Part shown: piece by piece, positions 42,596-61,974 of the stretch
How the letters are laid out: each line of letters begins with the position of its first letter
Position numbering within the stretch: the first letter of the stretch is position 1
Assembly (NCBI RefSeq): GCF_021730305.1
Contig: NZ_CP032674.1
Location: 4,201,001 to 4,265,000 of the forward strand
Reading direction: 5' to 3'
Source of the DNA: Xanthobacter sp. YC-JY1
GTDB taxonomy: Bacteria; Pseudomonadota; Alphaproteobacteria; Rhizobiales; Xanthobacteraceae
Length of the DNA stretch: 64,000 nt
Position numbers and translations under genes: made by a program
Notes under the pieces: model-generated
What the model saw: the letters and a program-made list of their open reading frames with translations, nothing else
Told to the model about the DNA's origin: nothing
The model's database searches: none

Positions 42596-42599
42596 GTCT

Positions 42600-43610: not shown

Positions 43611-43694
43611 GATCCTCGTCCTTTCCGTTGGAGGGGCTGTGTGGTGTCCCGGACGAGGCGGCCGGGACCCGTCCTTGGCGTTACGACGGACGGC

Positions 43695-44468: not shown

Positions 44469-45780
44469 TTTCCGTCTCCCCGTTGGAGCGCACCAGCCAC
44501 GTCTGGATGCCGTTGTTGTGGTAGATGGAATTGGTGCCACGGATGGCCCGCAGCTCCTGCTTGGTGGGCTGCACATAGCCCGTGTCGTCCATGGCGCGGG
44601 ACTGCACCATCAGCTCCTGCCCGGCCCAGTCGAAATCGAGATAGAAGCGCGTCATGGACATGGGCAGCGCCGGCCCGTCGATGCGCGCGGTTGTCCAGTT
44701 GCGGCCACCGTCCAGCGACACGTCCACCCGCGAGATGGTGCCGCGCCCCGACCAGGCGATGCCGGAGAGCACGTTCGGGCCCTTATGCTTCAAGGGCGCC
44801 TGCGGGCTCGGGCTCGTCACCACGGATTTCGCATCCATCACGAAGGTGAAGCGGCGCGAGCGGCCGTCGGCGAGGAGGTCGGTGTATTTCGACGTCTCCT
44901 CGCGCTGCTGCCACGGCTGGTCGCCCACCTTGAGGCGGCGCAGCCACTTGACCCACATATTGCCTTCCCAGCCCGGCACCACGAGCCGCACCGGATAGCC
45001 CTGCTCGGGCCGCAGCGCCTCGCCATTCATCCCGAACGCGACGAGGCAGTCGTTCATGGCCTTTTCGAGCGGGATGGAGCGGGTCATCACCGCCGCGTCG
45101 GCGCCCTCGGCGAGCACCCATTTGCCCTTGGGATTGACGCCGGCCATGTCCAGCAGCGTCTTCAGCGGCACGCCGGTGTAGAAGAGATTGTGGATCATGC
45201 CGTGGGTGAACTGGCAGCCGTTGAGCTGCGCGCCGCGCCACTCCATGCCGGAATTGGCCGCGCATTCGAGGAAGTAAGCGCGGTTCACCCGGCCGGGCAT
45301 GCGCTTGAGGTCTTCCAGCGTGAAGACGAGGGGCTTGTCCACCAGGCCGTGGATCATCAGCCGGTACTTGTCCGGCTCGATCTCCGCCTGTCCGCCATGG
45401 TGCCGCACGAAGCACAGGCCATTGGGCGTGATGACGCTGTCGAGAGCATAGAGCGGGGTGAAGCTGACCGAGCTTTGCGAGCTGGCGGTGAGCCACGTCA
45501 CCTCCCGGCGCACCACGTCCTTCTCGAAAACGGAGGGCTTGCCATAGGGGTTCTCGTTGACCGGCGCGCCGAGGGTCTTGGTCCAGTCGGGCACCGGCAC
45601 GATGTTGGGATCGGGCGTGCCGGCGGCCGGAGCGGCAAGGGCCGCCCCGCCTCCGGCGACGGCGGCGCCCGCCCCGATGCCCGCAAGGTTGAGGAAGCGC
45701 CTCCGGGAAAGCGACGACTTCGACAGCGACGGCTTCGCGCCGCTCGCGCGCTCCGTCGGGGGCAGACTGGTGTCGGACAT
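44452..45780 (-). CDS. soxC: SoxC, molybdenum subunit of sulfane dehydrogenase
   Basis: A 442-residue sulfite-oxidase-family enzyme. A Tat signal (SRRRFLNLAGIGAGAAV, from residue 25) exports the folded cofactor-bound protein. The molybdopterin domain has the Mo-ligand cysteine in FLECAANSG (Cys173), and a C-terminal dimerisation domain follows. SoxCD oxidises the SoxY-bound sulfane sulfur to the sulfonate level, the six-electron step that prevents sulfur globule formation. A SqrR-type operator (45804-45819) lies 24 nt upstream, suggesting an internal promoter. The family also includes SorA sulfite dehydrogenase, but linkage to soxB, soxYZ and soxD favours SoxC. Confidence 0.94.
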   Translation of the reverse strand: MSDTSLPPTERASGAKPSLSKSSLSRRRFLNLAGIGAGAAVAGGGAALAAPAAGTPDPNIVPVPDWTKTLGAPVNENPYGKPSVFEKDVVRREVTWLTASSQSSVSFTPLYALDSVITPNGLCFVRHHGGQAEIEPDKYRLMIHGLVDKPLVFTLEDLKRMPGRVNRAYFLECAANSGMEWRGAQLNGCQFTHGMIHNLFYTGVPLKTLLDMAGVNPKGKWVLAEGADAAVMTRSIPLEKAMNDCLVAFGMNGEALRPEQGYPVRLVVPGWEGNMWVKWLRRLKVGDQPWQQREETSKYTDLLADGRSRRFTFVMDAKSVVTSPSPQAPLKHKGPNVLSGIAWSGRGTISRVDVSLDGGRNWTTARIDGPALPMSMTRFYLDFDWAGQELMVQSRAMDDTGYVQPTKQELRAIRGTNSIYHNNGIQTWLVRSNGETENVEVG

Positions 45781-45803
45781 GGCGTCCTCCCTGATATTCT
45801 CTT

Positions 45804-45819
45804 ATTCGTAGTTTTGAAT
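45804..45819 (-). promoter_or_regulatory. SqrR/SoxR-type operator before soxC
   Basis: ATTC-GTAGTTTT-GAAT exactly fits the ATTC-N8-GAAT pattern reported for the persulfide-responsive repressor SqrR and its relatives. It lies in an A/T-rich 77-nt gap between soxB and soxC, within otherwise GC-rich DNA. The matching ArsR-type regulator is encoded at 52203-52574. Confidence 0.65.
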
Positions 45820-45857
45820 ATTTTGATCGGAATGCGGTGCCGGGATGGCCGCGCGCC

Positions 45858-47552
45858 TCATGCGCCGGTCACCTTCACGGAGGCATTGGGGGCGATCTTC
45901 ACGGACTTGGTGTCGGTCACGTAGCGCTCCACCAGTTCCCACACCGGCGGGCCTTCCACATTCTGGGCAACGGAGGCCCAGCCGGCGACCGTATAGGCCT
46001 TGTCGGCCTCCAGCGGCTTGCCCGTCTTGAGGAAGGTGAGATCGGAGATGCGCTGGCCGGGGCCCTTCGACACGTCAATGGCGTAGCCCACCCCGCCGAC
46101 GCGCACCATGTCGCCGCCGCCCTGAAAGTAAGGATCGGGATTGAAGATGTTGTCGGCCACGTCCTCCAGCACCTCCTTCAGCTGCCGGCCGGTCATGGTG
46201 TTGCGGTAGCAGGCCGGATAGGTGATGGCGGTGGCATTGGCGACGGCATCGAAGGTGATGGGATCACCCGGCAAGAGCGTGCCGCCCCAGCGGAAGCCGG
46301 GGGAGAGGGCGATCTCCGCGTCGCGCTCCTTCATGATCGCGTCGCAGATCATGTCGTCGAACGTGCCGTTGAAATTGCCGCGGCGGTAGAGAAGGCTGTC
46401 GGCGCGGCCGAGTTCGCGGGAGAGATCCTTGGCGTAGGGCGCGCGGATGTCCGTCACGAGCTTCGTCATCTCCGGGTCCGGCGCGATGACGTCCGAGAAC
46501 ACCGGGATGAGCTGGAAGCGATAGCCGGTGACCTTCCTGTCCTTCACGTCGAGATCGAGGCGGGACACGAACTTGCCGTGGGAGCCGGTGGCCACCAGCA
46601 GCGTCTTGCCCACCTCCACCACGCGCGGCATGGCATCGTGGGTATGGGCGGTGAGGATCACGTCGATGCCGTTGACGCGGGACGCCATCTTGCGGTCCAC
46701 GTCGAAGCCGTTGTGGGAGAGCACCACCACCGCATCGGCGCCGCCCGCGCGGGCGGCGTCCACCTGCTTCTGCATGTCCTCCTCGCGGATGCCGAACTCC
46801 CAGTCCGGGATCATCCAGCGCGGGTTGGAGATGGGCGTGCGAGGGAAGGCCTGACCGATCACCGCCACCTTGGCGCCGCCCTTCTCGAAGGTCTTCGCGG
46901 CCTCGAACACCGGCTCCTGCCATTCGGCGGAGCGCACGTTCTGGGCGAGGAAGGCGAAGGGCGCCTTCTCCTTGATCTCGGTGACGCGGTCGGCGCCGTA
47001 GGTGAATTCCCAGTGGCCGACCATGGCGTCCGTGCCGAGGGCGGAGAACACCTTCACCATGTCCTCGCCCTGCGTCTTCAGCGAGGACCAGGAGCCCTGG
47101 AGACCGTCGCCGCCGTCAAGCAGCAGCACCTTGTCCGCGCCGCGCTCGGCCCGGATGGCCTTCACCAGAGTGGCGATGCGGTCCACCCCGCCCATGCGCC
47201 CATAGGTGCGGGCGAGCTGGGTAAAGTCTTCCGAGGTGAGGGAATAGGCGTCGCGCGTGCCGGCCTTGAGGCCGAAATACTTGAGGAAAGCTGCATCGGT
47301 GAGGTGCGGGGGCACACCCCGCGCATCGCCCACGCCGAGATTGGTGGAGGGCTCGCGGAAATAGAGCGGCACGAGCTGGGCGTGGATGTCGGTGATGTGC
47401 AGGATGGTGAAGGTGCCGGCATTGCCGAACTTCAGGAGGTCCGCCTGGCTCAGCGCCTGCGCGCCGACCGCCTGCGCCAGCCCCGTGCCGGAGGCGGCGA
47501 GCAGGCCGGCGAGGGCCGTTCCGGCGGACAGAAAATCGCGCCTTGAGATCAT
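45858..47552 (-). CDS. soxB: SoxB, thiol sulfate esterase
   Basis: A 564-residue dimanganese hydrolase that releases sulfate from the cysteine S-thiosulfonate on SoxY. A Tat signal (ISRRDFLSAGTALAGLLA) is followed by the 5'-nucleotidase-like metallophosphoesterase domain with ITDIHAQLVP, LLLDGGDGLQGS, LSHNGFD and LTAHTHDAMP providing metal ligands, and a C-terminal domain (about 370-560). ATG at 47552 was preferred because it puts the twin arginine at the N-terminus; a GTG at 47561 would add three residues. The length and all motifs fit SoxB, a marker gene of thiosulfate oxidation. It lies 90 nt after soxZ. Confidence 0.95.
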   Translation of the reverse strand: MISRRDFLSAGTALAGLLAASGTGLAQAVGAQALSQADLLKFGNAGTFTILHITDIHAQLVPLYFREPSTNLGVGDARGVPPHLTDAAFLKYFGLKAGTRDAYSLTSEDFTQLARTYGRMGGVDRIATLVKAIRAERGADKVLLLDGGDGLQGSWSSLKTQGEDMVKVFSALGTDAMVGHWEFTYGADRVTEIKEKAPFAFLAQNVRSAEWQEPVFEAAKTFEKGGAKVAVIGQAFPRTPISNPRWMIPDWEFGIREEDMQKQVDAARAGGADAVVVLSHNGFDVDRKMASRVNGIDVILTAHTHDAMPRVVEVGKTLLVATGSHGKFVSRLDLDVKDRKVTGYRFQLIPVFSDVIAPDPEMTKLVTDIRAPYAKDLSRELGRADSLLYRRGNFNGTFDDMICDAIMKERDAEIALSPGFRWGGTLLPGDPITFDAVANATAITYPACYRNTMTGRQLKEVLEDVADNIFNPDPYFQGGGDMVRVGGVGYAIDVSKGPGQRISDLTFLKTGKPLEADKAYTVAGWASVAQNVEGPPVWELVERYVTDTKSVKIAPNASVKVTGA

Positions 47553-47650
47553 AAGGACCACGCTTTCTCAGGTCATGGCGGGAGCGCCCACCGGATCAGC
47601 CGATCCGATGGCACCTCCACCGACAACGGAACAATGCGAGGGGCGCCGCC

Positions 47651-47980
47651 TCAGGCGACGGTGAGCTTCGCGGTGGCCTTCTGCTCGGCGCCGCCGTCAT
47701 CCTTCCAGGTGAAGGTGAACTCGCCGCTCTCCTTCGCCTTGAAGAAGAAGGACTGGTAGGGGTTCGCCGAAATGGAGGTGAACCACTCCGCGGTGAAGAA
47801 GGGCTTGCCGTTGAAGGCGGCCTGGAAGTTGTTGATGATGTCGCGCGGCACGGTCTTGCCGGCGGCGTCCTTGCGCTGGCCGCTTTCCATCTCGTGCGAA
47901 ATCAGGGTCTTGATCTCGATGATCTCGCCCGCCTTGGCCTGGGCAGGCACGCGCACGCGCGGCTGGGACTTGAGGGCCAT
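47651..47980 (-). CDS. soxZ: SoxZ, sulfur-carrier complex subunit
   Basis: A 109-residue immunoglobulin-fold protein of normal SoxZ length: PRVRVPAQAKAGEIIEIKTL at the start, ISANPYQSFFFKAKESGEF in the second half. It has no signal peptide of its own and is presumably carried to the periplasm by the Tat-exported SoxY. It forms the SoxYZ carrier on which sulfur intermediates are held. GGAGGAAAC precedes its ATG. It sits 87 nt after soxY in the same operon. Confidence 0.94.
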   Translation of the reverse strand: MALKSQPRVRVPAQAKAGEIIEIKTLISHEMESGQRKDAAGKTVPRDIINNFQAAFNGKPFFTAEWFTSISANPYQSFFFKAKESGEFTFTWKDDGGAEQKATAKLTVA

Positions 47981-48067
47981 GGGTTTCCTCCGGTTTCTGT
48001 TCGGCGGCGCTCTGGCGCGCGCCTGTTCTGTTCTTTTGTGTCTTGGGGCAGCGATTCGTCTGTCGAA

Positions 48068-48586
48068 TCAGCCGCCGCAGCCGCCGATGGTGACCTTCAC
48101 CTGCACCTTGGCCGAATAAAGCTGTCCGCTGGACATCTCCGCCACGGCGATGACGTTCTGCGTCTGCGCGAGGCGCATGCGGGTGGAGGCGGAGGCTTTC
48201 CCGCTCTCGGGCGTGAAGTGATAGGTCACCACCTGCGGCAGCGGATTGCCGTCGGCGAAGACGTGGACGGACTTCACGAAGTCCGCCTCGGTCATCGGGC
48301 TGTCCACATCGATGTTGATGGGCACGACGAGGCCGTTCTCGGCGATCTCGGGCATGTCGAGCTTGATCTTGCCCGCGCCCATGGTCTTGCCGGCGAACAG
48401 CTTCTTCATTTCGTCCGCCACCTGCGCCTCGGTGGCGAGCGCCATGCGCGGCGCCAGCACGGCGGCGAAGGCGGCAAGGCCCGCGAGCTTCAGCGCGCCA
48501 CGGCGTGTCGGGAGGCCGTGCGCAGACAAGCCGCGCGTAGGGAGGCCGCGCGTAGGGACAAGGGTGGCGTCGAGACGGGGCGGCAT
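48068..48586 (-). CDS. soxY: SoxY, covalent sulfur carrier
   Basis: A 172-residue carrier ending in the swinging arm GGCGG, whose cysteine holds thiosulfate and sulfane sulfur. The Tat motif TRRGALKLAGLAAF is preceded by an odd n-region in which PTRGL-like units recur (VPTRGLPTRGLSAHGLPTRRG), encoded by short tandem copies around 48515-48565. The ATG at 48586 has AGGAGG upstream; in-frame sequence before it has no coding character. It heads the minus-strand operon soxYZBCD-cytochrome-dsrE-soxF, divergent from soxAX. Confidence 0.94.
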   Translation of the reverse strand: MPPRLDATLVPTRGLPTRGLSAHGLPTRRGALKLAGLAAFAAVLAPRMALATEAQVADEMKKLFAGKTMGAGKIKLDMPEIAENGLVVPINIDVDSPMTEADFVKSVHVFADGNPLPQVVTYHFTPESGKASASTRMRLAQTQNVIAVAEMSSGQLYSAKVQVKVTIGGCGG

Positions 48587-48842
48587 GCGTTTTCCTCCTG
48601 GCACGACCGGCACTTGAGGGCCGGCTTTTGGCGTTGTTCTTGTTGAATCTCGTCCCCGTGACGGCGGTGGTCGCGGCGGATCAATTTCACATATTGTGAT
48701 ATCGAATTTTTTGAATGTAAAGTAGCTCCTATCCGCTGATCGCATCCATCTATGAGGGATGGAGCGTCGCAGGTGGATCGCCGCGGCTCAAGGGCTTCAC
48801 GCAGAAGGCCCCAGGCCCCGGACGTCTCGCTGGGGAGGATAC
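48587..48842. promoter_or_regulatory. Divergent soxY / soxA promoter region
   Basis: This 256-nt gap has an A/T-rich core at 48681-48725. It contains the inverted repeat TCACA-TAT-TGTGA (48687-48699) and the partial SqrR-like pattern ATCG-AATTTTTT-GAAT (48701-48716), with a repeated GAAT spaced 9 bp. These are probable binding sites for the SoxR repressor, though neither is an exact ATTC-N8-GAAT match. No gene was seen here. Confidence 0.45.
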
Positions 48843-49673
48843 ATGCGACCCAAAGCCACGTTTCTCACATGCCTGTGCGCCCTCGCCTTGGCGCTCTCAC
48901 CCCTTGTCACGGCCCGCGCGCAGGACGATGCGAGCGAGAAGGAGATCGAGCGCTACCGCGCCATGATCAACGACCCCATGGCCAATCCCGGCTATCTCGC
49001 CGTGGACCGGGGCGAGGCCATCTGGGCCGATCCGCGCGGCACCAAGAACGTCTCGCTGGAGGCCTGCGACCTCGGCCAGGGGCCGGGCAAGCTGGAAGGC
49101 GCCTATGCCGCTTTGCCGCGCTATTTCGCGGATGCCGGCAAGGTCATGGATCTGGAGCAGCGCCTGCTGTGGTGCATGGACAAGATCCAGGGCGTGGACA
49201 TCAAGCCCATCATGGCCAAGCCCTTCTCCGGCCCCGGCCGGGGCTCGGACATGGAGGATCTCGTCGCCTTCATCGCCAACAAGTCCAACGGCATGAAGAT
49301 CGACATCCCGCTTGCCCATGCCAAGGAGAAGGAGGCCTATGCCATCGGCGAGGCGCTGTTCTATCGGCGCTCGTCCATCAACGACTTTTCCTGCTCCACC
49401 TGCCACGGCGATCCCGGCAAGCGCATCCGGCTCCAGGGCCTGCCGCAGCTCGACAAGCCGGGCAAGGACGCCCAGCTCACCATGGGCTCCTGGCCCACCT
49501 ACCGCGTCTCCCAGAGTTCGCTGCGAACCATGCAGCACCGGCTGTGGGACTGCTATCGCCAGATGCGGATGCCCCCGCCCGATTACGCCTCCGAAGCCGT
49601 CACGGCGCTCACCGTCTTCCTGCAGGCGCAGGCGGCCGGGGGCGAGCTGAACGTGCCGTCCATCAAGCGCTGA
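48843..49673 (+). CDS. soxA: SoxA, monoheme cytochrome subunit of SoxXA
   Basis: A 276-residue c-type cytochrome: Sec signal (about 1-26), a heme-free N-domain that keeps a cysteine pair (Cys75, Cys111), and a C-domain with CSTCH (184-188) and the ligand cysteine in RLWDCYRQM (Cys237), which carries the persulfide in known structures. One heme instead of two marks the monoheme type described from Starkeya. With SoxX it oxidatively joins thiosulfate to the SoxY cysteine. The ATG at 48843 follows GGGGAGGATAC; an upstream in-frame start at 48759 is unlikely. It is followed by soxX after 14 nt. Confidence 0.94.
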
Positions 49674-49687
49674 GGGGAGGAAGAGCC

Positions 49688-50314
49688 ATGAAGACAATCA
49701 TCATCGCCGCGGCGCTTCTTCTTCCGCAGATCGCCTCTGGCGTGGCCTTCGCGCAGCAGATCCCCCCTGCCCCGCCCGCCGTGGTGGACAGGGTGGTGAA
49801 GGAGAGCTTCACCAAGCTCCCGGACGGCTGGGCCGCGCGGCTCGTGCCAGACGAGACCATGGAAATCTGCTCGGTCACGCGCAACCAGCCCTCCGCCAAG
49901 CAGGCGGAAGCCATCATGGCCCGCGAGGCCAAGACGGTGAAATATCCGCAGGGCAGCCTGCTCGGCGACTGGAAGAAGGGCGCCGAGGTGGCGCAGAACG
50001 GGCGGGGCGGCCAGTTCTCCGATCCGCCCGGCACGGTGAGCGGCGGCAATTGCTATGCCTGCCACCAGATGGACCCGAAGGAAGTCAGCTACGGCACCCT
50101 CGGCCCCAGCCTCGTCAACTACGGCGCGGACCGCAAATTCTCCGCCGAGGATGCGAAAGCCGCCTACGCCAAGGTCTACAACGCGCAGGCAGTGTTCGCC
50201 TGCTCGCCCATGCCGCGCTTCGGGCACAACGGTGTGCTCAGCGAAGAGCAGATGAAGGACGTGGTGGCCTATCTGTTCGATCCCAACTCTCCGGTGAACA
50301 AGCCGGCGAAATGA
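49688..50314 (+). CDS. soxX: SoxX, monoheme cytochrome subunit of SoxXA
   Basis: A 208-residue c-type cytochrome with a Sec signal (1-23), an extra N-terminal region (30-110) and the heme motif CYACH (122-126); the axial Met is probably in CSPMPRFGHN. SoxX partners SoxA. Its length is at the upper end of the family because of the extra region, which includes another cysteine (EICSVTR). It begins 14 nt after soxA with GGGAGGAAGAGCC upstream and is followed by a hairpin terminator. Confidence 0.93.
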   Translation: MKTIIIAAALLLPQIASGVAFAQQIPPAPPAVVDRVVKESFTKLPDGWAARLVPDETMEICSVTRNQPSAKQAEAIMAREAKTVKYPQGSLLGDWKKGAEVAQNGRGGQFSDPPGTVSGGNCYACHQMDPKEVSYGTLGPSLVNYGADRKFSAEDAKAAYAKVYNAQAVFACSPMPRFGHNGVLSEEQMKDVVAYLFDPNSPVNKPAK

Positions 50315-50321
50315 GACGATC

Positions 50322-50352
50322 GGCGGGGGCGCTCCGGCGTCCCCGCCCTTTT
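50322..50352 (+). terminator. Rho-independent terminator after soxAX
   Basis: GGCGGGG (50322-50328) pairs with CCCCGCC (50341-50347) around a 12-nt loop, followed by C and TTTT (50349-50352). It lies 8 nt after the soxX stop and just before the convergent soxW end. Confidence 0.7.
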
Positions 50353-50356
50353 GCAT

Positions 50357-50923
50357 TCAGCCCTTGCCCTGCTTGCCGAGCCACGCATCGAAAGGCTCGC
50401 GGGCATAGGCGCCTTCGGCCACATAGCGGAACAAAGCGGAGAATTCCGGCCGGGGCAGCAGTCCCGGCATGCGCGCCACCTCCTTGGGCTTTCCATCCAC
50501 CTCGGCGAAGAACTGGAAGGTGGGCGTGGCGCGGATGCGCTCGCGCTGGCCCAGCGCCTTCTCGGTGAGCCGCGCGCCGTCGAGGAAGGTCACCTCCCGC
50601 GCGCCGAACAGGTCCAGATGCACGATATCGAACGCCTCCCGGATGGGCGTCTCGATGGCCGGATCGGCGAAATAGGCGGTGTGCAGCTCCTTGCAATAGA
50701 TGCAGCCGCGCTGGCTCCACTGGAGCGCGAATCCCCGCCCCTTCCCGCGCGCGGCGGCGAAATCCTCGGACAGGTCGAGGAAGCTGTCCACATACCAATC
50801 TTCAGTATAGAGCCCGTCATCGCCGAGCCGCGCCTTGGCCTGCGCACCGGCGGGAAGGAGCGCCGCCGCGAGCCCGGCGGAGGCCTGAAAGAGGTGCCGG
50901 CGGCTGAGCGTGGGGTCTGCCAT
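50357..50923 (-). CDS. soxW: SoxW, periplasmic thioredoxin-like protein
   Basis: A 188-residue thioredoxin-fold protein with a Tat-like signal (SRRHLFQASAGLAAALL) and the redox motif CIYC in QRGCIYCKEL (residues 74-77). SoxW proteins take electrons from the membrane transporter SoxV and keep the SoxYZ cysteine reduced. GGAGGACC precedes its ATG. It lies 12 nt after soxV on the same strand and is convergent with soxX. Confidence 0.88.
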   Translation of the reverse strand: MADPTLSRRHLFQASAGLAAALLPAGAQAKARLGDDGLYTEDWYVDSFLDLSEDFAAARGKGRGFALQWSQRGCIYCKELHTAYFADPAIETPIREAFDIVHLDLFGAREVTFLDGARLTEKALGQRERIRATPTFQFFAEVDGKPKEVARMPGLLPRPEFSALFRYVAEGAYAREPFDAWLGKQGKG

Positions 50924-50935
50924 GGGTGGTCCTCC

Positions 50936-51661
50936 CTATCCGATGCGGCCGAGGCCAGGCGCGGCGTCGAGCAGCCATTGGGCGATCTGGGGCATGAAGC
51001 CGGTCATGAAGGCGATGCCGGTGAGGATGAGCAGCCCGCCGGCGATCTTCTCGACCAGCCCGAGCCGGCTGCGCGCCGCCCGTGACCAGGCGAGGAACCG
51101 CTCGGTGAAAGCGGCGGCGATGAGGAAGGGAATGCCGATTCCGGCAGCATAGATGGCGAGCAGCAGCATCCCCCGCCCCACCGACGCCTCGGCCCCGGCG
51201 ACGAGCAGGATCGCCGCCAGCACCGGCCCCACGCAGGGCGACCAGCCGAAGCCGAAGGCGAGGCCCACCACATAGGGCCCGATGAGCCCCGCCGGCCGCG
51301 CCATGGGCTCCAGCCGCGCCTGCCGGTAGAGCAGCGGGATGCGCACCAGCCCCGTCATGTGCAGCCCGAACAGCACCAGCAGCGCGCCGGAGAACAGCGT
51401 GAGGGTCTCGATGTGCTCCATCAGCACCCGCCCGAGGGAGGAGGCCGTGGCCCCCAGCAGCACGAAGACGGAGGCGAAGCCGAGCACGAACAAAAGCGCT
51501 GCCCCGAGCACGCCGCGGCGCGCGGGCCCAGACTCCGCGCCCTCCGTCGCGGCACCCGCGAGGAAGCCGAGATAGGCCGGCACCAGCGGCAGCACGCAGG
51601 GCGAGGCGAACGAGAGCAGGCCGGCAAGGAAAGCTCCTGCGAGGCTGACATCGAGAGACAT
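50936..51661 (-). CDS. soxV: SoxV, CcdA/DsbD-type thiol electron transporter
   Basis: A 241-residue membrane protein with six predicted helices. The two conserved cysteine motifs are FASPCVLPLVPAYL (near residue 21) and GWSPCVGPVLAAIL (near residue 146), the CcdA signature. It moves electrons from cytosolic thioredoxin across the membrane to SoxW. The ATG at 51661 has GGGAGGAG upstream; in-frame sequence before it is the divergent promoter. It heads the soxVW pair. Confidence 0.9.
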   Translation of the reverse strand: MSLDVSLAGAFLAGLLSFASPCVLPLVPAYLGFLAGAATEGAESGPARRGVLGAALLFVLGFASVFVLLGATASSLGRVLMEHIETLTLFSGALLVLFGLHMTGLVRIPLLYRQARLEPMARPAGLIGPYVVGLAFGFGWSPCVGPVLAAILLVAGAEASVGRGMLLLAIYAAGIGIPFLIAAAFTERFLAWSRAARSRLGLVEKIAGGLLILTGIAFMTGFMPQIAQWLLDAAPGLGRIG

Positions 51662-51777
51662 GCTCCTCCCCGATCGTTGGAAACCGCGTCTTCCAGGGTG
51701 CGCGGATTGGTCCTTGCTCAAGATATATGCGAATGCGATAATATGTCTCGTGAAATCCACGTCGGGATTGTGAATTC
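51662..51777. promoter_or_regulatory. Divergent soxV / soxS promoter region
   Basis: The 116-nt gap has an A/T-rich stretch at 51720-51750 (GATATATGCGAATGCGATA) with a direct repeat TGCGA-A-TGCGA and one GAAT half-site. A weak SoxR site is possible, but no full ATTC-N8-GAAT is present. Confidence 0.35.
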
Positions 51778-52170
51778 ATGCGCCCTTCAGCGTGCCTGAT
51801 GCTCGCGGCCGGCCTCCTCGCCGGGGGTCTTTCGGTGGCCCTCGCGCCGGCCGCCTCGGCGCGCGAGCTGCTGATGTTCGAGCGCAAGGGCTGCGCCTAT
51901 TGCCTGAAGTTCGACCACGACGTGGCACCCATCTACGAAAAGACCGACGAGGGGCAGCGCGCGCCGCTCCGGCGTGTGGACCTGTCCGACGGCACGCCCG
52001 GCGACGTGGTGCTGGCGGCGCCGGTCCGCTTCACGCCCACCTTCGTGCTGGTGGACGAGGGGCGCGAAGTCGGGCGCATTATTGGCTATGCTTCGGATGA
52101 AGCGTTCTGGGGCCTGCTCGGCTCGATGCAGGACACCATGACGGACAGGATGGCAGGCGCGCGGCCGTGA
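51778..52170 (+). CDS. soxS: SoxS, periplasmic thioredoxin-like protein
   Basis: A 130-residue protein with a Sec signal (about 1-28) and a thioredoxin-like domain whose active site is CAYC (residues 39-42; ERKGCAYCLKFDHDV), with cis-Pro region RFTPTFVLVD. In Paracoccus and relatives the equivalent SoxS keeps the sox system active by reducing its thiols. It is followed 32 nt later by soxR on the same strand and is divergent from soxV. Confidence 0.85.
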   Translation: MRPSACLMLAAGLLAGGLSVALAPAASARELLMFERKGCAYCLKFDHDVAPIYEKTDEGQRAPLRRVDLSDGTPGDVVLAAPVRFTPTFVLVDEGREVGRIIGYASDEAFWGLLGSMQDTMTDRMAGARP

Positions 52171-52202
52171 GGTCGCCCCGCCGGGATTGAGAAGGCAGGC
52201 AC

Positions 52203-52574
52203 ATGTCGATCGTTTCCAGGCGACTTGAGGACGAACTGCGGGAAGGCCCGGAGATCTCGCCCGAGCTTGACCGCCTCATGCGCAACGCCCGCAAGGCGAG
52301 CGACTTCCTGAAAGCCCTCTCCCACGAGAACCGCCTGCTGCTTCTGTGCCTGCTGGCTGAGGGCGAGCGCTCGGTGACGGAGCTGGAAAACATCCTCTCC
52401 CTGCGCCAGCCCACCGTCTCGCAGCAGCTGGCGCGCCTGCGCCTCGACGATCTCGTCACCACGCGGCGCGACGGCAAGACCATCTATTACAGCCTCGCCA
52501 ACGATGATGTGCGCCGGGTGATCTCGGTGATCTACGACATGTATTGCGGCACCTCAGCATCGGACGCAAAGTAA
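52203..52574 (+). CDS. soxR: SoxR/SqrR/BigR-type ArsR-family persulfide-sensing repressor
   Basis: A 123-residue winged-helix repressor. The DNA-reading helix is LRQPTVSQQLARLRLDDLV. Two cysteines, Cys49 (LLLLCLLAE) and Cys115 (DMYCGT), stand 66 residues apart, the spacing of the two sensing cysteines of SqrR; in that protein a polysulfide bridge between them releases DNA. Therefore this protein probably derepresses sox genes in response to sulfane sulfur. A well-matched operator lies before soxC. It is in an operon with soxS. Confidence 0.92.
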   Translation: MSIVSRRLEDELREGPEISPELDRLMRNARKASDFLKALSHENRLLLLCLLAEGERSVTELENILSLRQPTVSQQLARLRLDDLVTTRRDGKTIYYSLANDDVRRVISVIYDMYCGTSASDAK

Positions 52575-52654
52575 GCTTTAGAAAAAATGCGCCGGGCCGG
52601 CGACGGGACGCTTCACAAGTCCCGCTCCGGCCGTCTCAGGGAGGAGGGCGCGCA

Positions 52655-53761
52655 ATGGATGTTTCAAGCCCCTGGTGGACCGCGCTCGCCGGTCTCGCCG
52701 TGGGCGGGGTGGTCGGCTTCGCCGTGTTCCGCGCCCGCCTGTGCACCTTCGGTGCGCTGGAAGACGCCATGGTGGGCCACGACTGGCGCCGCATGAAGGT
52801 GTTCGCCCTCGCCCTAGGCCTCGCCGTGCTCGGCACGCAGGCCCTCGCCATGGCCGGCATCCTTGCCCCGGACCGCACCAATTACGTCACCACCGCGCTG
52901 CCGTGGCTCGGCATCCTCACCGGGGGTGTGCTGTTCGGCCTCGGCATGGCGCTGGTGGGCACGTGCGCCTTCGGCTCGCTGGTGCGCCTGGGATCGGGCG
53001 ACCTGCGCAGCCTCGTCGTGCTGCTGGTGTTCGGGGCGGTCGCCTACGCCACCTTGCGCGGCATCTTCGCCGGCATCCGGGTGGACGGGCTGGAGCGCAT
53101 CGCCCTGCTGCTGCCGACCGGCACCGCGAGCGACCTGCCCTCCATCATGGGGCGCCTCACCGGGCACGATTTCAGGGGCATCCTCACCGCCGTCGCCGGC
53201 GTCGCGCTGGTGGCGCCGGCCTTCGCCGACCGCAGGCTGCGCCGCGCCGGACGGCTGATGACGGCCGGGGTGATGCTGGGGCTTGGCGTGGTCGCCGGCT
53301 GGCTCGCCACCACCTGGCTGGTGGACGAGTTCGCCCACCCCACACCCCCGCAGAGCCTCACCTTCGTCTCGCCGGTGGCGCGCGCTCTGTTCGGCGTGCT
53401 GTTCGAGCCCACGAGCCTCGCCGAGTTCGGCGCCGGCAGCGTCTTCGGTGTCGCCCTCGGCGCCTTCGCCGCCGCCCGCCTCGCGGACGAATTCCGCTGG
53501 GAGGCGTTCGACGACCCGCGCGAGATGAAGCGCCATCTGCTCGGCGCGGTGCTCATGGGCGCGGGCGGCATCCTCTGCGGCGGCTGCACCATCGGGCAGG
53601 GCCTGACGGCCGGTTCCCTCTTCGCCTTGTCCTGGCCGCTCGCGGTGGCGGGGATGGCGGTCGGCGCGCGGCTGGGCATCGCGCTGCTGATGGAAGGTTC
53701 GCTGACCGGCTTCGTGCGCCAGAGCGTGGCCGGCCGCTTCGGCTTCCACAACAAGCCCTGA
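52655..53761 (+). CDS. YeeE/YedE-family sulfur-compound transporter (SoxT-like)
   Basis: A 368-residue membrane protein with about nine to ten helices. Family cysteine motifs are seen in RARLCTFGALED (near residue 30), GTCAFGSLVRLGSGDLR (near 105) and GGCTIGQGLTAGS (near 310). YeeE of this family imports thiosulfate through a relay of cysteines, and the sox-linked members are named SoxT. GGGAGGAG precedes the ATG at 52655. It lies 80 nt after soxR on the same strand; import of a sulfur signal or sulfur source is likely. Confidence 0.85.
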   Translation: MDVSSPWWTALAGLAVGGVVGFAVFRARLCTFGALEDAMVGHDWRRMKVFALALGLAVLGTQALAMAGILAPDRTNYVTTALPWLGILTGGVLFGLGMALVGTCAFGSLVRLGSGDLRSLVVLLVFGAVAYATLRGIFAGIRVDGLERIALLLPTGTASDLPSIMGRLTGHDFRGILTAVAGVALVAPAFADRRLRRAGRLMTAGVMLGLGVVAGWLATTWLVDEFAHPTPPQSLTFVSPVARALFGVLFEPTSLAEFGAGSVFGVALGAFAAARLADEFRWEAFDDPREMKRHLLGAVLMGAGGILCGGCTIGQGLTAGSLFALSWPLAVAGMAVGARLGIALLMEGSLTGFVRQSVAGRFGFHNKP

Positions 53762-55852: not shown

Positions 55853-57685
55853 ATGGTCGCGAACACGCCCCGCTCTCCCCTGTCGTACCTCCGCCGCACG
55901 TGCGCCGTCCTGGCGCTGGCCGTGCTGTCGGCCATCGGCGCCGGCTCCGCGCTGGCCCAGAGCCGCATCCTGAAGGCGGACGAGGCCTTCACCGTCTCGG
56001 CGACACGGGCGACGGACGGCGGCCTCGCCCTGAGCTGGCGCATCGCGCCGGGCACCTATCTCTATCGCGAGAGCCTGAAGGCCGGGATGGAGGGCGCCTC
56101 CGTCCCCCTCGCCTTGCCGCCGGGCGAGCAGAAGGACGATCCGAATTTCGGGCCGGTGGACATCTATCACCGGTCCGTCGCGGCGCAGACCACCGGCCTC
56201 CCGGCGACGGGGACAATGGACATCTCCTTCCAGGGCTGCGCCGAGCAGGGGGTCTGCTACCCAGTCGTGACGCGGCAGGTGGATCTCGCGACGCTCGCCA
56301 TCACCCCCGCCCGTCCGCCCGCCGAAGCCTCGCCCACGCAGGACCAAGGGAGCAGCGCGTCGCCCCGCGAACCTGCCGCAGCGCCCGCGCCCGCAGCGCA
56401 ACCGGCCGCCATGGATGGGCTGTTCCAAACTGGCCTGCTGCCCCTGCTGGGGGCCTTCTTCGGCCTCGGCCTGCTGCTCGCCTTCACGCCCTGCGTCTTC
56501 CCCATGCTGCCGATCCTCTCGGGCATCCTCGCCGGCGGCGGAGCGAAGCCGACACCGGCCCGCGGCCTCGCCTTGTCCGGCGCCTATGGCCTTGCCATGG
56601 CTGCGGCCTATGGCGTGCTCGGCATGACCGTCGCCTGGACCGGCGCGAATCTTCAGGCGGCTCTGCAGACGCCATGGGCCATCGGCTTGATGGCCGCCGT
56701 GTTCGTCGTGCTGGCTGGCGCCATGTTCGGTCTCATCGATCTCGCCGTCCCGTCCGCACTCGCGGCGCGGCTGCCGTCGGGCGTGCGCGGTTCCATCGCG
56801 GGGGCGGCGGGGCTCGGCTTCGCCTCGGCGCTGGTGGTGGGGCCGTGCGTGACGCCGCCGCTCGCCGCCGCCATGCTCTATGCGGCGCAGACGGGCGATG
56901 CCGCGCGCGGCGCCTCCGCCCTGTTCATGCTGGGCCTCGGCATGGCGGCACCGCTGGTGGCGGTGGGGGCGTTCGGCGCGCAGATCCTGCCCCGCTCGGG
57001 GCGCTGGCTTCTCGCCATCAAGCAGGGCTGCGGCGTGCTCTTCCTCGCCATCGCCGCATGGCTCGCGGCGCGCGTGCTGCCCGACGCCGCCGGCCTTGCC
57101 CTCTACGGCCTTCTCGCCATCGGCCTCGGCGTGTTCGCAGGCGGCTTCGATGCGCTGACCTCCGACGCCGATGCCGGCCGCCCGATAGGCAAAACCTTGG
57201 GCAAGACGGCAGGCATCGCCGCCGTGGCGTGCGGGCTCCTGCTGCTGGTGGGCGCGGCCGGCGGCGCGAGCGATCCACTGCGCCCCCTTGGCTTCCTCGC
57301 CGCGCCGGCCCGCCCGGTCATCGCGGAAGCGCGGGAGGTGCGGGTGTCGTCCCCCGCCGCGCTGACGCAGGCACTCGCCGCCCGTCAGGACGGCCGCCCC
57401 ACCCTCGTCTCCTTCACCGCCGACTGGTGCACGGTCTGCAAGTCCAACGAAACGACGATGGCTGCGCCGGCCGCAGCCGCGCGCCTGTCCGGGCTGGATC
57501 GGATCGCCGTGGACGTGACCCGGTATGGCGATGGCGCGCAGGCCCTCATGGGCCGCTACGCGGTCATCGGCCCGCCGACCTTGTTCCTCCTCGATCCCAC
57601 CGGGCGCGAGGTGCCGGGATCGCGCCGCGTGGGCGCGCTGACCCTCGCCGACATCGACCACCTCGCCATTCAAGCGGGCCTCTGA
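55853..57685 (+). CDS. dsbD: DsbD, thiol:disulfide interchange protein
   Basis: A 610-residue three-part protein. After a signal peptide (about 1-37), the N-terminal domain carries the cysteine pair in SFQGCAEQGVCYPV (about 127 and 133). The membrane part has eight helices with AFTPCVFPMLPIL and LVVGPCVTPPLAAAM, and the C-terminal thioredoxin domain has FTADWCTVCKSNE (near 525). It carries electrons from cytosolic thioredoxin to periplasmic partners. The ATG at 55853 has GAGGGAGCG upstream. It is followed by the DsbA-family gene, forming an operon. Confidence 0.92.
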   Translation: MVANTPRSPLSYLRRTCAVLALAVLSAIGAGSALAQSRILKADEAFTVSATRATDGGLALSWRIAPGTYLYRESLKAGMEGASVPLALPPGEQKDDPNFGPVDIYHRSVAAQTTGLPATGTMDISFQGCAEQGVCYPVVTRQVDLATLAITPARPPAEASPTQDQGSSASPREPAAAPAPAAQPAAMDGLFQTGLLPLLGAFFGLGLLLAFTPCVFPMLPILSGILAGGGAKPTPARGLALSGAYGLAMAAAYGVLGMTVAWTGANLQAALQTPWAIGLMAAVFVVLAGAMFGLIDLAVPSALAARLPSGVRGSIAGAAGLGFASALVVGPCVTPPLAAAMLYAAQTGDAARGASALFMLGLGMAAPLVAVGAFGAQILPRSGRWLLAIKQGCGVLFLAIAAWLAARVLPDAAGLALYGLLAIGLGVFAGGFDALTSDADAGRPIGKTLGKTAGIAAVACGLLLLVGAAGGASDPLRPLGFLAAPARPVIAEAREVRVSSPAALTQALAARQDGRPTLVSFTADWCTVCKSNETTMAAPAAAARLSGLDRIAVDVTRYGDGAQALMGRYAVIGPPTLFLLDPTGREVPGSRRVGALTLADIDHLAIQAGL

Positions 57686-57707
57686 CCCCATGACCGAAGG
57701 ACGACCC

Positions 57708-58337
57708 ATGCGCCGCAGGGAATTCATCCGCATCGCCGCGCTCACAGCGCTCGTGCCAGCCGCGCTGGCGGGCACGCGCGGGGCACGGGCGGAAGGCGTC
57801 GACGTCAACGCCATCCTCCGCGACCCGGCCGCGCCGACCTTCGGCAATGCGGACGGCGACGTCACCATCGTCGCCTTCCTCGATTACAACTGCCCCTTCT
57901 GCAAGAAATCGGCGCCGGACCTCGCCCGCGTGGTGAAGGAGGACGGGCACATCCGGCTCGTCTACAAGGACTGGCCGGTGCTGACCGAGGCTTCGGTCTA
58001 CGGCGCGCAGCTGGCGCTCGCGGCGACCTATCAGGGGCGCTACGAGACGGTGCACGACGCGCTGATGGCCATCCCCGGCCGCCGCATCGACGAGCCGACC
58101 ATGCTGAAGGCCGTGGCCGGCTCGGGCGTCGACCTCGACCGGCTGATGGCGGATCTCAAAGCCCATATCGCGGACATCGGCGCGCTCCTGAAGCGCAACG
58201 CCGCGCAGGCGGAGTCCCTCGGCCTCAGCGGCACGCCCACCTATCTGGTCGGCCCGCTGCTCGCCTCCACCCTCGACTATTCCAACTTCAAGCGCGCCGT
58301 GGCCGAAGCCCGCCGCCGCCAGACCGCGGGGGAATGA
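57708..58337 (+). CDS. DsbA-family (Com1-like) periplasmic thioredoxin-fold protein
   Basis: A 209-residue protein with a Tat-like signal (RRREFIRIAALTALV), active site CPFC in YNCPFCKKSAP (residues 62-65) and the cis-proline loop SGTPTYLVG (near 184). The helical insertion between them is of DsbA type, the Com1/BdbD branch. ATG at 57708 was chosen because GAAGGACG lies properly upstream; an ATG at 57690 is possible. It overlaps the next gene by ATGA and probably exchanges thiols with DsbD, as an oxidase or as a reductase or isomerase partner. Confidence 0.88.
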   Translation: MRRREFIRIAALTALVPAALAGTRGARAEGVDVNAILRDPAAPTFGNADGDVTIVAFLDYNCPFCKKSAPDLARVVKEDGHIRLVYKDWPVLTEASVYGAQLALAATYQGRYETVHDALMAIPGRRIDEPTMLKAVAGSGVDLDRLMADLKAHIADIGALLKRNAAQAESLGLSGTPTYLVGPLLASTLDYSNFKRAVAEARRRQTAGE

Positions 58338-59023
58338 TGCCGCACGTGGATCCTCTCTCCGCCGCCAACATGCTCTCTCGTCGCAGCCTGTTCACCACCC
58401 TCCTGCTGCCGCTGGCCCTCGGGGCCTGCGTGACCACGCAGGAGGAGATGCCAGTAAAGGCGCCGCGCATCGCGCCGACCGATGCCGCGCGCTATGGCGC
58501 GCTGGAGGACAATGGCTTCCGCATTCCCGCCGCTGATCCCGACGACATCAAGCCGCGCAACGTCCGCCAGCTGGTGAGCAACCCCACCGGACAGGAGCCG
58601 GGCACGCTGGTGGTCGATCCCCGGAACCGCTTCCTCTATCTCGTGCAGGAGAACGGCAAGGCGCTGCGCTATGGCGTGGGTGTCGGCCGCGAAGGGCTCG
58701 AATTCTCCGGCACCGCGAATGTGGGCAACAAGCGCGAATGGCCGAGCTGGCGGCCCACCGACGCCATGATCGCGCGCGAGCCCGCCAAGTATCGCCCCTG
58801 GGCCGGTGGCATGGCGGGGGGCGAGACCAATCCCCTGGGTGCCCGCGCGCTCTATCTGTTCAAGGACGGCAAGGACACGCTCTACCGCATCCACGGCACC
58901 AACGAGCCGTGGACCATCGGCGAGGCGGTCTCCTCCGGCTGCATCCGCATGATGAACCAGGACGTGATCGACCTGTACCGCCGCGTGCCGAACGGCACCA
59001 AGGTGGTGGTGCTTCCCGTCTGA
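58334..59023 (+). CDS. L,D-transpeptidase lipoprotein (YkuD domain)
   Basis: A 229-residue enzyme. The lipobox LALGAC (Cys32) marks a lipoprotein. The YkuD catalytic block runs from HGTNEPWTIG (His187) to SSGCIRM (Cys203), with the conserved His, Ser, Gly, Cys and Arg all present. It forms 3-3 peptidoglycan cross-links or anchors proteins to the wall. It overlaps the DsbA-family gene by ATGA (two adjacent ATGs at 58334 and 58337). Its active-site cysteine needs a reduced thiol, which fits its location in the dsbD operon; this link is inference. Confidence 0.9.
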   Translation: MMPHVDPLSAANMLSRRSLFTTLLLPLALGACVTTQEEMPVKAPRIAPTDAARYGALEDNGFRIPAADPDDIKPRNVRQLVSNPTGQEPGTLVVDPRNRFLYLVQENGKALRYGVGVGREGLEFSGTANVGNKREWPSWRPTDAMIAREPAKYRPWAGGMAGGETNPLGARALYLFKDGKDTLYRIHGTNEPWTIGEAVSSGCIRMMNQDVIDLYRRVPNGTKVVVLPV

Positions 59024-59157: not shown

Positions 59158-61248
59158 TCAGTAGCGGGCGTCCGCCGGCTTCTTGTCCTTCGGCCAGTCG
59201 TTCACCTTGGGGGCGAAGTCCGGCCGCGGCATGTGGCTGAAATATTCGGCCACATCCACCGCCTCCTGGTCGGTGAGGCCGCCCTGGCCCAGCGGGAAGC
59301 CGCCGTGGAAGCCGATGGGCATGTTGCGCTTCACGAAGGCCGCGGCCGTGTAGGTGCGCGCCATGCCCGCGCCGATGTTGAAGGACTGGTCGCCCCAGAG
59401 CGGGGGATAGACGAAGGCGCCGGCGGCGTCCTTTATGCCCTCTCCGTTCGAGCCGTGGCAGACGGCGCACTGGGCGGCGTAGACCCTGCCGCCGTTCTCC
59501 GTGTCCGGCTTGATCGCCTGGCTGATCTTGCCGACGCCGCGGCCCTCCACCTTGTCCTCGGGCTTCGTCTCCCGCTTCATCCAGTCGAAATAGGCCACCA
59601 TGGCCTTCATGTCGTCGCCGTCCTTCGCCAGCGGCTTGCCGTTCATGGAGCGCAGGAAGCAGCCGTTGATGCGGTCTTCCAGCGTGATCTCCCGCCCGGC
59701 CCGCGGCGCGTAGCTCGGGAAGAAGGCGGAGACGCCCACATAGGGCGAGCCATCGGCCACCGTGCCGGCATTGAGGTGGCAGCTGGAGCAGTTCAGCACG
59801 TTGCCGACATTCTTCGGCAGCAGAGTGTGCGTCTCGGTGTTGAGGCGCATGCCGCGCACCAATTGGGCCGCATTGGGCTCCTTCAGCACATCCGCGATGC
59901 GCGGCGTGTCGAAGGGCCGGGTATCCACCTTCGGGTCGAGCGTCGCGCGCGCGACCTTCACATGCGCGGTCGTGACCGGCGCCGCACCGCCGCCCCAGCT
60001 GGCGCGGACAAAGGAGAGGATGTCAGCGATCTCGTCGTCCCCCAGCCGGGCGAAGCCGGGCATGGTGAAGACGCGGGCATGCGCCTGCGTCTGCGCCGTC
60101 GCCCAGCCGGTCAGGGTGATGTGGACGAGCGTCGAGGGGTCCTTGGCCGCGACCGTCGGATTGCCGCCGAGCGGCGGGAACACCTTGGCGACGCCGGCCC
60201 CGTTCAGACGATGGCAGTCGGCGCAGAACTGGGCGTAAGCGAGCCCGCCCCGGGTGGTGAACATGGCCGCGGGAATGCCGGTGTCCGGCGTCGCCGGGCG
60301 CTGCGCGCGCGGCTGGTCGGTGGGCAGGCCGCCGAGATAGGTGGCGATGGCCACGAGATCGGCGTCGGTGAAGTTCTGGGTGGAGTTGTGGATCACCTCG
60401 GTCATGGAGCCGGAGACGGTGCCGAAGCGGTTCTGGCCGGTCTTCAGCAGCTCCACCGTGTCATCCACGTCGCCGAGGCCGCGCAGGTTGACCGCGTTCC
60501 ATTCCTCGACCTTTGAGCCCGCGAGGAACGTTTCGCCGCTGCCGTCCGTGTCGGACATAGCGCGTTCCTGGAAGCCGATGCCCCGCGGCGTGTGGCAGGC
60601 GCCGCAATGGCCGAGCCCCTGCACCAGATAGGCGCCGCGATTCCACACCTCGCTTTTGCCGGCATCGGCGACGAAGGGATGGCTGTCGAGGAACATCTCG
60701 TTCCAGAAGGCGAGCGTCCAGCGTTGGTTGAAGGGGAAGCCGATGCCGGACGGCCGGTTGGGGCTGTCCACCGGCGCCACGCCCTTCATGAGGTAGACGT
60801 AGAGCGCGTACATGTCGTCCGGCGACATCTTCGCGTAGGACGGGTACGGCATGGCCGGGTACATGTGGGTGCCGTCGGCGGTCACGCCCTTGCGCATGGC
60901 GCGGTCGAAGGCGCCGAAGCTGTAGCGGCCGATGCCGGTCTTCGGATCGGGGGTGATGTTGGTGGAGTAGAGCATGCCGAACGGCGTCTCCAGCCCACGC
61001 CCGCCGGCCATGGGCTTCCCGTCCGCCGTGGTGTGGCAGGCGACGCAGTCACCCAGCTCCGCGATGTACTTGCCGCGGGCCACCAGCTCCGGGGCTGCCG
61101 CCTGCGGCAGCGTGCGACCGCCATCATCGATGCGCGGCGGGGTGACGATCCACCCGAAAACCGCCGCGCCAACCACCGCGACGCCGGCTGCGGCCGCCGC
61201 GAGCGTCTTCAATCGCGGCCTGCGCCGGATTGTACCTTCGTCGTTCAT
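59158..61248 (-). CDS. Five-heme cytochrome c: triheme dehydrogenase subunit fused to a TsdA-like thiosulfate dehydrogenase domain
   Basis: A 696-residue periplasmic or membrane-anchored cytochrome with an N-terminal hydrophobic helix (about 14-36). Five heme motifs: CVACH (68-72), CGACH (215-219), CADCH (342-346), CSSCH (487-491) and CAVCH (594-598). The first three, with STNITPDPKTGIG and YPAMPYPSYAKMSPDDM, match the cytochrome subunit of membrane alcohol or gluconate dehydrogenases. The last two resemble diheme TsdA: LNCSSCHLNAG, LEDRINGCFLRSMNGKPL (Cys530 is a candidate heme ligand) and NMPIGFHGG. Hence it may oxidise thiosulfate to tetrathionate and pass electrons on through three further hemes. 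AGGAGG precedes the ATG at 61248. No dehydrogenase gene accompanies it. Confidence 0.85.
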   Translation of the reverse strand: MNDEGTIRRRPRLKTLAAAAAGVAVVGAAVFGWIVTPPRIDDGGRTLPQAAAPELVARGKYIAELGDCVACHTTADGKPMAGGRGLETPFGMLYSTNITPDPKTGIGRYSFGAFDRAMRKGVTADGTHMYPAMPYPSYAKMSPDDMYALYVYLMKGVAPVDSPNRPSGIGFPFNQRWTLAFWNEMFLDSHPFVADAGKSEVWNRGAYLVQGLGHCGACHTPRGIGFQERAMSDTDGSGETFLAGSKVEEWNAVNLRGLGDVDDTVELLKTGQNRFGTVSGSMTEVIHNSTQNFTDADLVAIATYLGGLPTDQPRAQRPATPDTGIPAAMFTTRGGLAYAQFCADCHRLNGAGVAKVFPPLGGNPTVAAKDPSTLVHITLTGWATAQTQAHARVFTMPGFARLGDDEIADILSFVRASWGGGAAPVTTAHVKVARATLDPKVDTRPFDTPRIADVLKEPNAAQLVRGMRLNTETHTLLPKNVGNVLNCSSCHLNAGTVADGSPYVGVSAFFPSYAPRAGREITLEDRINGCFLRSMNGKPLAKDGDDMKAMVAYFDWMKRETKPEDKVEGRGVGKISQAIKPDTENGGRVYAAQCAVCHGSNGEGIKDAAGAFVYPPLWGDQSFNIGAGMARTYTAAAFVKRNMPIGFHGGFPLGQGGLTDQEAVDVAEYFSHMPRPDFAPKVNDWPKDKKPADARY

Positions 61249-61524: not shown

Positions 61525-61974
61525 ATGTCCGACAAGATCATCATCCCCTGCCCCCATTGCGGGCAGCTCAACCGCCTGCCCGCCGAACGGCGCGGCGGCG
61601 GGCGTTGCGGTTCCTGCGGGCAGGCCCTGTTCACGGGGCATCCCGTGGCGCTCACGACGGCCGCGTTCGACCGGCAGATCGGCTCGGAAGACCTGCCCGT
61701 GCTGGTGGACTTCTGGGCCGGCTGGTGTGGCCCCTGCCGCGCCATGGCGCCGGCATTCGAGGCCGCCGCTGCCGCGCTGGAGCCGCGCGTGCGGCTGGCC
61801 AAGGTGGATACGGAAGCCGAACCGCAGCTCGCCGCCCGCTTCCAGATCCGCTCGATCCCGACGCTGATCCTGTTCCGTGGCGGCCGGGAAATTGCCCGCC
61901 AGAGCGGCGCCCTCTCCGGCGGGCAGATCCGCGCCTTCGTGGACCAGCACGTCGCCGCCGGCGCGACGCGCTGA
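61525..61974 (+). CDS. trxC: Thioredoxin 2
   Basis: A 149-residue cytosolic thioredoxin with an N-terminal zinc site (CPHC and CGSC; Cys9, 12, 28, 31) and the active site WAGWCGPCRAMAP (Cys68, Cys71), the defining features of TrxC. The ATG at 61525 starts MSDKIIIPCPHCG; longer in-frame sequence upstream is unlikely to be coding. The 276-nt gap before it, shared with the divergent cytochrome gene, shows no clear regulatory motif. It may supply electrons to DsbD or SoxV; this is inference. Confidence 0.93.
   Translation: MSDKIIIPCPHCGQLNRLPAERRGGGRCGSCGQALFTGHPVALTTAAFDRQIGSEDLPVLVDFWAGWCGPCRAMAPAFEAAAAALEPRVRLAKVDTEAEPQLAARFQIRSIPTLILFRGGREIARQSGALSGGQIRAFVDQHVAAGATR

Follow-up and report, generated by a model that had tools for sequence, protein, structure and literature searches.

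Can the cytochrome subunit of a periplasmic dehydrogenase and a thiosulfate dehydrogenase be united in one polypeptide, and what would such a protein do? The question is raised by a gene in a 64,000-nucleotide stretch of Xanthobacter sp. YC-JY1 (NZ_CP032674.1, positions 4,201,001 to 4,265,000), which we call the window and whose numbering is used below. The gene lies on the minus strand at 59158..61248 and encodes a protein of 696 amino acids (aa) from an ATG start, while the longest reading of the frame, from a GTG, gives 710 aa. As the initial annotation had claimed, this single protein carries five CxxCH motifs, at residues 68, 215, 342, 487 and 594, which by our own estimate is far above chance. 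From sequence comparison we consider it probable that in this protein a thiosulfate dehydrogenase/tetrathionate reductase of the TsdA type has its own triheme electron relay built in, the relay being a cytochrome of the alcohol, gluconate or fructose dehydrogenase (ADH/GADH/FDH) type.

Two modules in one polypeptide

Structure-database searches bore out the assignments made before for both ends of the protein. Residues 48–436 match the cytochrome subunits of pyrroloquinoline quinone (PQQ)-dependent ADH and of glucose, fructose and aldehyde dehydrogenases, with 8gy2_B as the best match (E=7e-92). This triheme module (59941..61107, on the minus strand like all features of the gene; residues about 48–436) holds heme I (CVACH, 61033..61047, residues 68–72), heme II (CGACH, 60592..60606, residues 215–219) and heme III (CADCH, 60211..60225, residues 342–346), and M133, M282 and M396, which we take to be candidates for distal heme ligands, are present in all 86 fusions described below. 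The second part matches TsdA of Allochromatium vinosum (4wqc, residues 461–684, E=7e-51) and TsdBA (5lo9, residues 446–677, E=3e-37), and Pfam SoxA-TsdA_cyt-c is above its cutoff at residues 486–554. The TsdA module (59161..59913, residues about 446–696) contains heme IV (CSSCH, 59776..59790, residues 487–491) and heme V (CAVCH, 59455..59469, residues 594–598), by homology the active-site heme and the electron-transfer heme, respectively.

Residue 530 is the cysteine of RINGCFLRSMNGK; it is aligned to the catalytic cysteine by which TsdA ligates its heme, and stands in the block R526-I-N-G-C530-F-L-R-S534 (59647..59673), corresponding to A. vinosum Arg119, Cys123 and Ser127. The active site of the A. 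vinosum enzyme comprises Arg109, Arg119, Cys123, Ser127 and Arg224 (PMC4423706), and these residues align to R516, R526, C530, S534 and R631 of the fusion, each of which is kept in 86 of 86 fusions. With the alignment and the TsdA-like fold of the model, Cys530 stays a credible candidate for a heme ligand, as first suggested. Equally constant (86 of 86) are M643, by alignment the Met distal ligand of the second heme, and the Asn before it at the position of A. vinosum Lys208; the pair N642-M643 (59320..59325) corresponds to A. vinosum Lys208-Met209, the heme 2 distal ligands, and to Asn254-Met255 of Campylobacter jejuni. TsdA from C. jejuni has the same Asn before the heme 2 Met, and by alignment Marichromatium purpuratum TsdBA, which is oxidation-biased, has it as well (PMC5146829). 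Asn642 was therefore rejected as a marker of tetrathionate reduction: being common to the C. jejuni reducer and to the oxidation-biased TsdBA, it says nothing on direction.

Of the 74 rows in a TsdA tree, 36 are chosen fusions, and these form a single clade (98/86) among the TsdAs, nearest to A. vinosum and L128. The C-terminal half thus groups with the TsdAs rather than apart from them, the latter having been named beforehand as the outcome that would count against the assignment. The exclusion of SoxA rests on scores and residues, as the tree held no SoxA row. By the tests run, the C-terminal half is a complete TsdA and was classed as such. One could still imagine that TsdA chemistry has been lost and that the fusion does no more than transfer electrons or has a different sulfur compound as its substrate. 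A precedent is C. jejuni CccC, a TsdA relative that serves as electron donor to an oxidase and in which Met replaces Cys (PMC5146829); as none of the 86 fusions has lost the Cys or any of the other four residues of the active site, we regard such a loss as very improbable.

Distribution and the dehydrogenase slot

A contig search gave 137 encoded relatives, of which the best 80 were kept; six loci on plasmids and four from the window's own genome brought the collection to 90. The whole fusion is present in 86 of them, from alpha-, beta- and gamma-proteobacteria and always with five motifs, and after further sampling the five motifs were seen in every one of 101 fusion loci (with no fewer than five genes among them being duplicates). 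Alignment A1 contained P0001 and 53 of the 80 contig-search loci, alignment A2 52 rows. Among the best 80 of 137, the nearest named relatives belong to Xanthobacter, with Xanthobacter aminoxidans at 95%. The survey of related genomes proposed in the initial annotation was carried out: many genera carry the fusion, and within the genus it occurs in 11 of 14 genomes, so that an assembly or annotation artefact can be taken as refuted and its probability as practically nil. Wider surveys found it in 21 of 198 genomes of the family, only in the window's own genome among 385 of a class sample and in 5 of 398 genomes of a phylum sample, all lower bounds, as 5, 3 and 2 candidates per genome were scored, respectively. 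The patchy spread would fit transfer, and the fusion also occurs on plasmids, including pMOL30 of Cupriavidus metallidurans. The pMOL30 copy (L008; NC_006466.1 67227-69479) lies near czc genes and adjoins a tyrosine recombinase.

In seven loci (L009, L113–L118) the two halves are adjacent separate genes, the frames of which overlap when read stop to stop; in L009 the separate TsdA frame opens with its own hydrophobic leader. These split pairs form the sister clade of the fusions in the TsdA tree and a single clade in a triheme tree that included 25 chosen fusions. Both fused and split forms are found in two genomes (G385 and G431). A divergent fusion of 57% identity (G837:C13:84278-88107) has a stand-alone tsdA about 1.3 kb off on the opposite strand.

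For comparison we used the 13 closest stand-alone triheme loci available, taken from a phylum search (L098–L112 minus the split pairs L104 and L106). A dehydrogenase gene directly adjoins the triheme gene in 12 of the 13, molybdopterin-binding in four and GMC-type in eight, four of these loci being also the source of the query genes; in the thirteenth, L109, no dehydrogenase was found in a short flank. The same queries yielded two weak matches in the 86 fusion loci, and the one in L086 adjoins a separate, unfused triheme gene. That no dehydrogenase subunit adjoins the window's fusion had been noticed from the start, and none was found among the scanned neighbours. Since a dehydrogenase accompanies the stand-alone trihemes and not the fusions, the triheme module appears to serve as a plug-in acceptor of electrons, with TsdA filling the dehydrogenase slot. 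The own genome encodes three further ADH-type triheme cytochromes (L002, L003 and L004), and in two of these loci, L003 and L004, there are frames that the molybdopterin dehydrogenase query matches as well.

Proposed electron path and direction of the reaction

The activity, the order and contacts of the hemes and the exit of the electrons would, as we infer them, be the following. At heme IV, with Cys530 as its ligand, two thiosulfates would be joined to tetrathionate, with Arg516, Arg526, Ser534 and Arg631 assisting, and the electrons would pass from heme IV to heme V and on to heme III, which would occupy the docking place of TsdB in TsdBA, normally the place of the dehydrogenase subunit. 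From heme III they would run via heme II and heme I into the membrane's respiratory chain, either to quinone or to a c-type cytochrome. In structure models the folds match the triheme subunit and TsdA structures, and the heme-III domain together with TsdA superposes on the second domain of TsdB and TsdA of 5lo9. In the earlier proposal of a tetrathionate-forming enzyme with its own electron module, the module part seems strengthened by the split pairs, the missing dehydrogenase and this model match; the direction has to be weighed separately.

The N-terminal hydrophobic segment (61141..61206, residues about 15–36; Kyte-Doolittle 19-mer 2.14; model helix 11–35) may be an anchor or a signal peptide. 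It is anchor-like in the Xanthobacter and Rhodopseudomonas rows, the N-termini of Azospira and P. aeruginosa PA7 resemble cleaved signal peptides by eye, and 26 of the 86 fusions show no strong N-terminal hydrophobic 19-mer under our own threshold and start rule. All of these statements are rough, since start codons of the relatives were set by a simple rule; L018 ends at a contig edge. The triheme could make the protein a thiosulfate (or tetrathionate):ubiquinone oxidoreductase in the manner of quinone-linked ADH, an idea that concerns the electron exit only, is compatible with either direction and in our view is tentative and rather doubtful. The anchor-like rows speak for it, as does the nearest solved relative, 8gy2_B, which is ADH subunit II and reduces ubiquinone (PMC9171043), whereas the peptides that look cleaved, the short polar tails in which the nearest stand-alone trihemes end and the lack of a later hydrophobic segment in the fusions speak against it. 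Quinone-site residues were not found in the literature excerpts searched. The ubiquinone couple lies near +0.1 V. Electron transfer from thiosulfate to ubiquinone would thus be uphill by about 0.1 V, as the thiosulfate/tetrathionate couple is at +198 mV (PMC5146829).

The same difference makes the step from quinol to tetrathionate downhill and thereby favours the serious rival to our explanation, namely that the fusion works mainly in reverse, as a quinol- or cytochrome-fed tetrathionate reductase in low-oxygen respiration with the triheme feeding the TsdA site. Further evidence on this point comes from a PhnD-type sensor histidine kinase, the gene of which was found close to the fusion in 18 of 87 loci (the 86 fusions and the split Paracoccus pair), a lower bound as 13 loci have less than 2.5 kb on one side. 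It is located upstream in Zoogloea, Azospira sp. I13, other Rhodocyclales-type, Gallionella and unclassified loci and downstream in Ideonella, Rhizobium, Thioclava, Siculibacillus and Rubrivivax, on the strand of the fusion in 17 of the 18 and on the opposite strand in L036. The L036 kinase (L036:3879-5711) is in two frames and may be a pseudogene or a sequencing error. In the four kinases tested, the match to the TtrS model extends over the full length, with 305–333 bits, and stays below the NCBIfam NF040750 cutoff of 750; both regulators tested are FixJ/TtrR-like, with the FixJ score above the TtrR score. As a control, genomes of the window's class, and not of beta- or gamma-proteobacteria, were searched for such a kinase (frame of at least 600 aa, E<1e-30), and it was found in 3 of 190, with a fourth weak match in G095 (728-aa frame). 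In two of the three control genomes sox genes adjoin the kinase and in the third they do not, so the TtrS-like family may also act as a sulfur sensor for sox clusters. At L163:5600-8109 a PhnD-domain kinase and its regulator directly adjoin a sox operon. At L164:3170-4594 SoxX and SoxA seem to be fused, with both NCBIfam models above cutoff and three CxxCH motifs, and this frame adjoins a PhnD-domain kinase and soxB/soxC.

In nine loci the fusion is followed on the same strand by a diheme cytochrome gene, called TsdB-like from heme count and position, and a separate TsdA gene; in eight of these the kinase precedes the fusion, L026 being the exception, and in L027 the distance is about 3.8 kb. 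The pair lies on the opposite strand in L078. The order of kinase, fusion and diheme/TsdA pair resembles that in Vibrio parahaemolyticus (ttrRS-ttrBCA-tsdBA), whose TtrS carries a sensor domain of this type and whose tsdBA is responsible for thiosulfate oxidation (PMC11293645). A sensor of thiosulfate, ThsS, has also been described (PMC5408782).

The reverse direction can therefore call on the potentials, on the TtrS-like kinases, on the Rhodocyclales-type loci in which the fusion adjoins a separate diheme-cytochrome/TsdA pair as ttrBCA adjoins tsdBA, and on the Asn-Met pair shared with C. jejuni. Against it stand the sox genes beside the same kinase family in two of the three background genomes, which fit oxidation, the occurrence of Asn-Met in the oxidation-biased TsdBA and the aerobic habit of many carriers, and we judge it unlikely. 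The oxidizing direction seems more likely in vivo for three reasons: many carriers belong to largely aerobic genera, the sensor kinase family is found beside sox as well, and tetrathionate is formed by two heterotrophic Pseudomonas strains. Among the best 80 of the 137 relatives many carriers are Pseudomonas, Xanthobacter and Massilia, which are mostly aerobic. The tetrathionate formation of the two strains has been ascribed to TsdA (PMC6245092).

Several points nevertheless weigh against a thiosulfate-oxidizing enzyme with its own relay. TsdA runs both ways (PMC5146829), the A. vinosum and L128 branches beside the fusion clade are long, and the triheme tree does not resolve the fusion and split clades as sisters. 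The AlphaFold2 models contain no hemes, have a predicted local distance difference test (pLDDT) value below 50 at residues 215–253, 504–509 and 625–634, near several motifs, and superpose on 5lo9 with a root-mean-square deviation of 4.3–4.4 Å, and 5LO9 was probably included in the training set. A hydrophobic 19-mer past the first heme is present in none of the 86 fusions. A TtrS-like kinase or TtrSR was not found in the window's own genome, and the kinase control is restricted to the window's class, outside of which most of the 18 kinase loci lie.

Sulfur genes nearby and known systems

The initial annotation had pointed to a neighbourhood rich in sulfur-oxidation and thiol-redox genes, and both kinds are indeed present in the window. 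Next to the fusion, on the plus strand, are genes for a DsbD-like thiol:disulfide interchange protein (55880..57685), a DsbA-like thiol oxidoreductase (57690..58337), an L,D-transpeptidase-like protein (YkuD; 58334..59023), which is also found by the fusion in L011, L012, L013, L015, L016 and L120, and a thioredoxin with a Thio2-type zinc ribbon (61537..61974). These thiol-redox neighbours are kept in several Xanthobacter loci. The sox cluster region (43215..53761) encodes SoxC, SoxB, SoxZ, SoxY and SoxA, all above NCBIfam cutoffs, together with DsbD/CcdA-like protein, thioredoxins, an ArsR regulator and a Sulf_transp transporter, and lies some 5–18 kb from the fusion; among ten proteins tested no SoxX was above cutoff. 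A flavoprotein of the flavocytochrome c sulfide dehydrogenase type (window 41324-42712) adjoins the cluster. As a general fusion neighbour sox does not hold up: SoxA/SoxY/SoxT matches occur in one of the 86 fusion loci, L014, a Xanthobacter, with most flanks being about 6 kb, and sox adjacency was therefore dropped as general functional evidence. Neighbour clusters of the fusion loci also include GGDEF/EAL, ABC-transporter and LysR representatives.

The suggestion of a second thiosulfate route beside Sox needs correction, since the same genome has a separate stand-alone diheme TsdA-like gene (G000:C1:4397562-4398410; L119:3940-5055, minus). The latter has CMMRSMNG in its catalytic block and falls into a clade apart from the fusion.

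With free TsdA (A. vinosum 4v2k/4wq7; C. jejuni) the fusion has in common the diheme SoxA/TsdA fold, the aligned Cys ligand, the active-site residues and the tree position, but it carries a three-heme module in front and, in contrast to the A. vinosum enzyme, has Asn in the place of Lys next to the Met of heme V, a feature shared with C. jejuni. M. purpuratum TsdBA (5lo9), the one named TsdA fusion met in the literature excerpts (PMC5146829), likewise has a cytochrome module ahead of TsdA; its partner is the diheme TsdB, whereas here it is a triheme ADH/GADH/FDH-type subunit, making five hemes in total, and the two are evidently separate fusion events. The cytochromes of PQQ-alcohol, flavin adenine dinucleotide (FAD)-fructose/gluconate and molybdenum-aldehyde dehydrogenases (8gy2_B, 7w2j_C, 8gy3_A) share the three CxxCH motifs and the fold with the fusion, which differs in having no adjoining dehydrogenase, an attached TsdA and none of the later hydrophobic segment seen in the fructose dehydrogenase cytochromes. 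TtrSR/ThsSR, sensors of tetrathionate and thiosulfate, concern neighbours in relatives only: the four kinases tested there match the TtrS model full-length yet far under the cutoff, and none was found in the window's genome. We have thus filed the whole fusion, from its sequence, as a putative further electron-partner arrangement beside free TsdA and TsdB/TsdBA. Among the papers listed, no published description of an ADH-type triheme-TsdA protein was found in the titles, abstract openings and passages covered, and the 2012 TsdA survey may mention one. In the annotated records examined these proteins bear no other name than "c-type cytochrome" or "cytochrome C" and may therefore escape surveys of the sulfur cycle.

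DoxDA links the thiosulfate/tetrathionate couple to the quinone pool. A more far-reaching picture, speculative and rather unlikely in our eyes, is that of a single-polypeptide, membrane-anchored, quinone-coupled and reversible thiosulfate/tetrathionate oxidoreductase, under a TtrS/ThsS-like sensor in several lineages. If true, TsdA would have taken over the quinone-reactive electron module of periplasmic dehydrogenases, and a further way to link the couple to the quinone pool would exist beside DoxDA and TtrABC. More generally, the fusion names a concrete electron partner for TsdA in bacteria without TsdB and suggests that the electron module of dehydrogenases can be exchanged between the chemistries of sugars, aldehydes and inorganic sulfur. 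It offers a possible way for common heterotrophs such as Pseudomonas to make tetrathionate and may represent an overlooked route by which electrons from sulfur compounds enter respiration.
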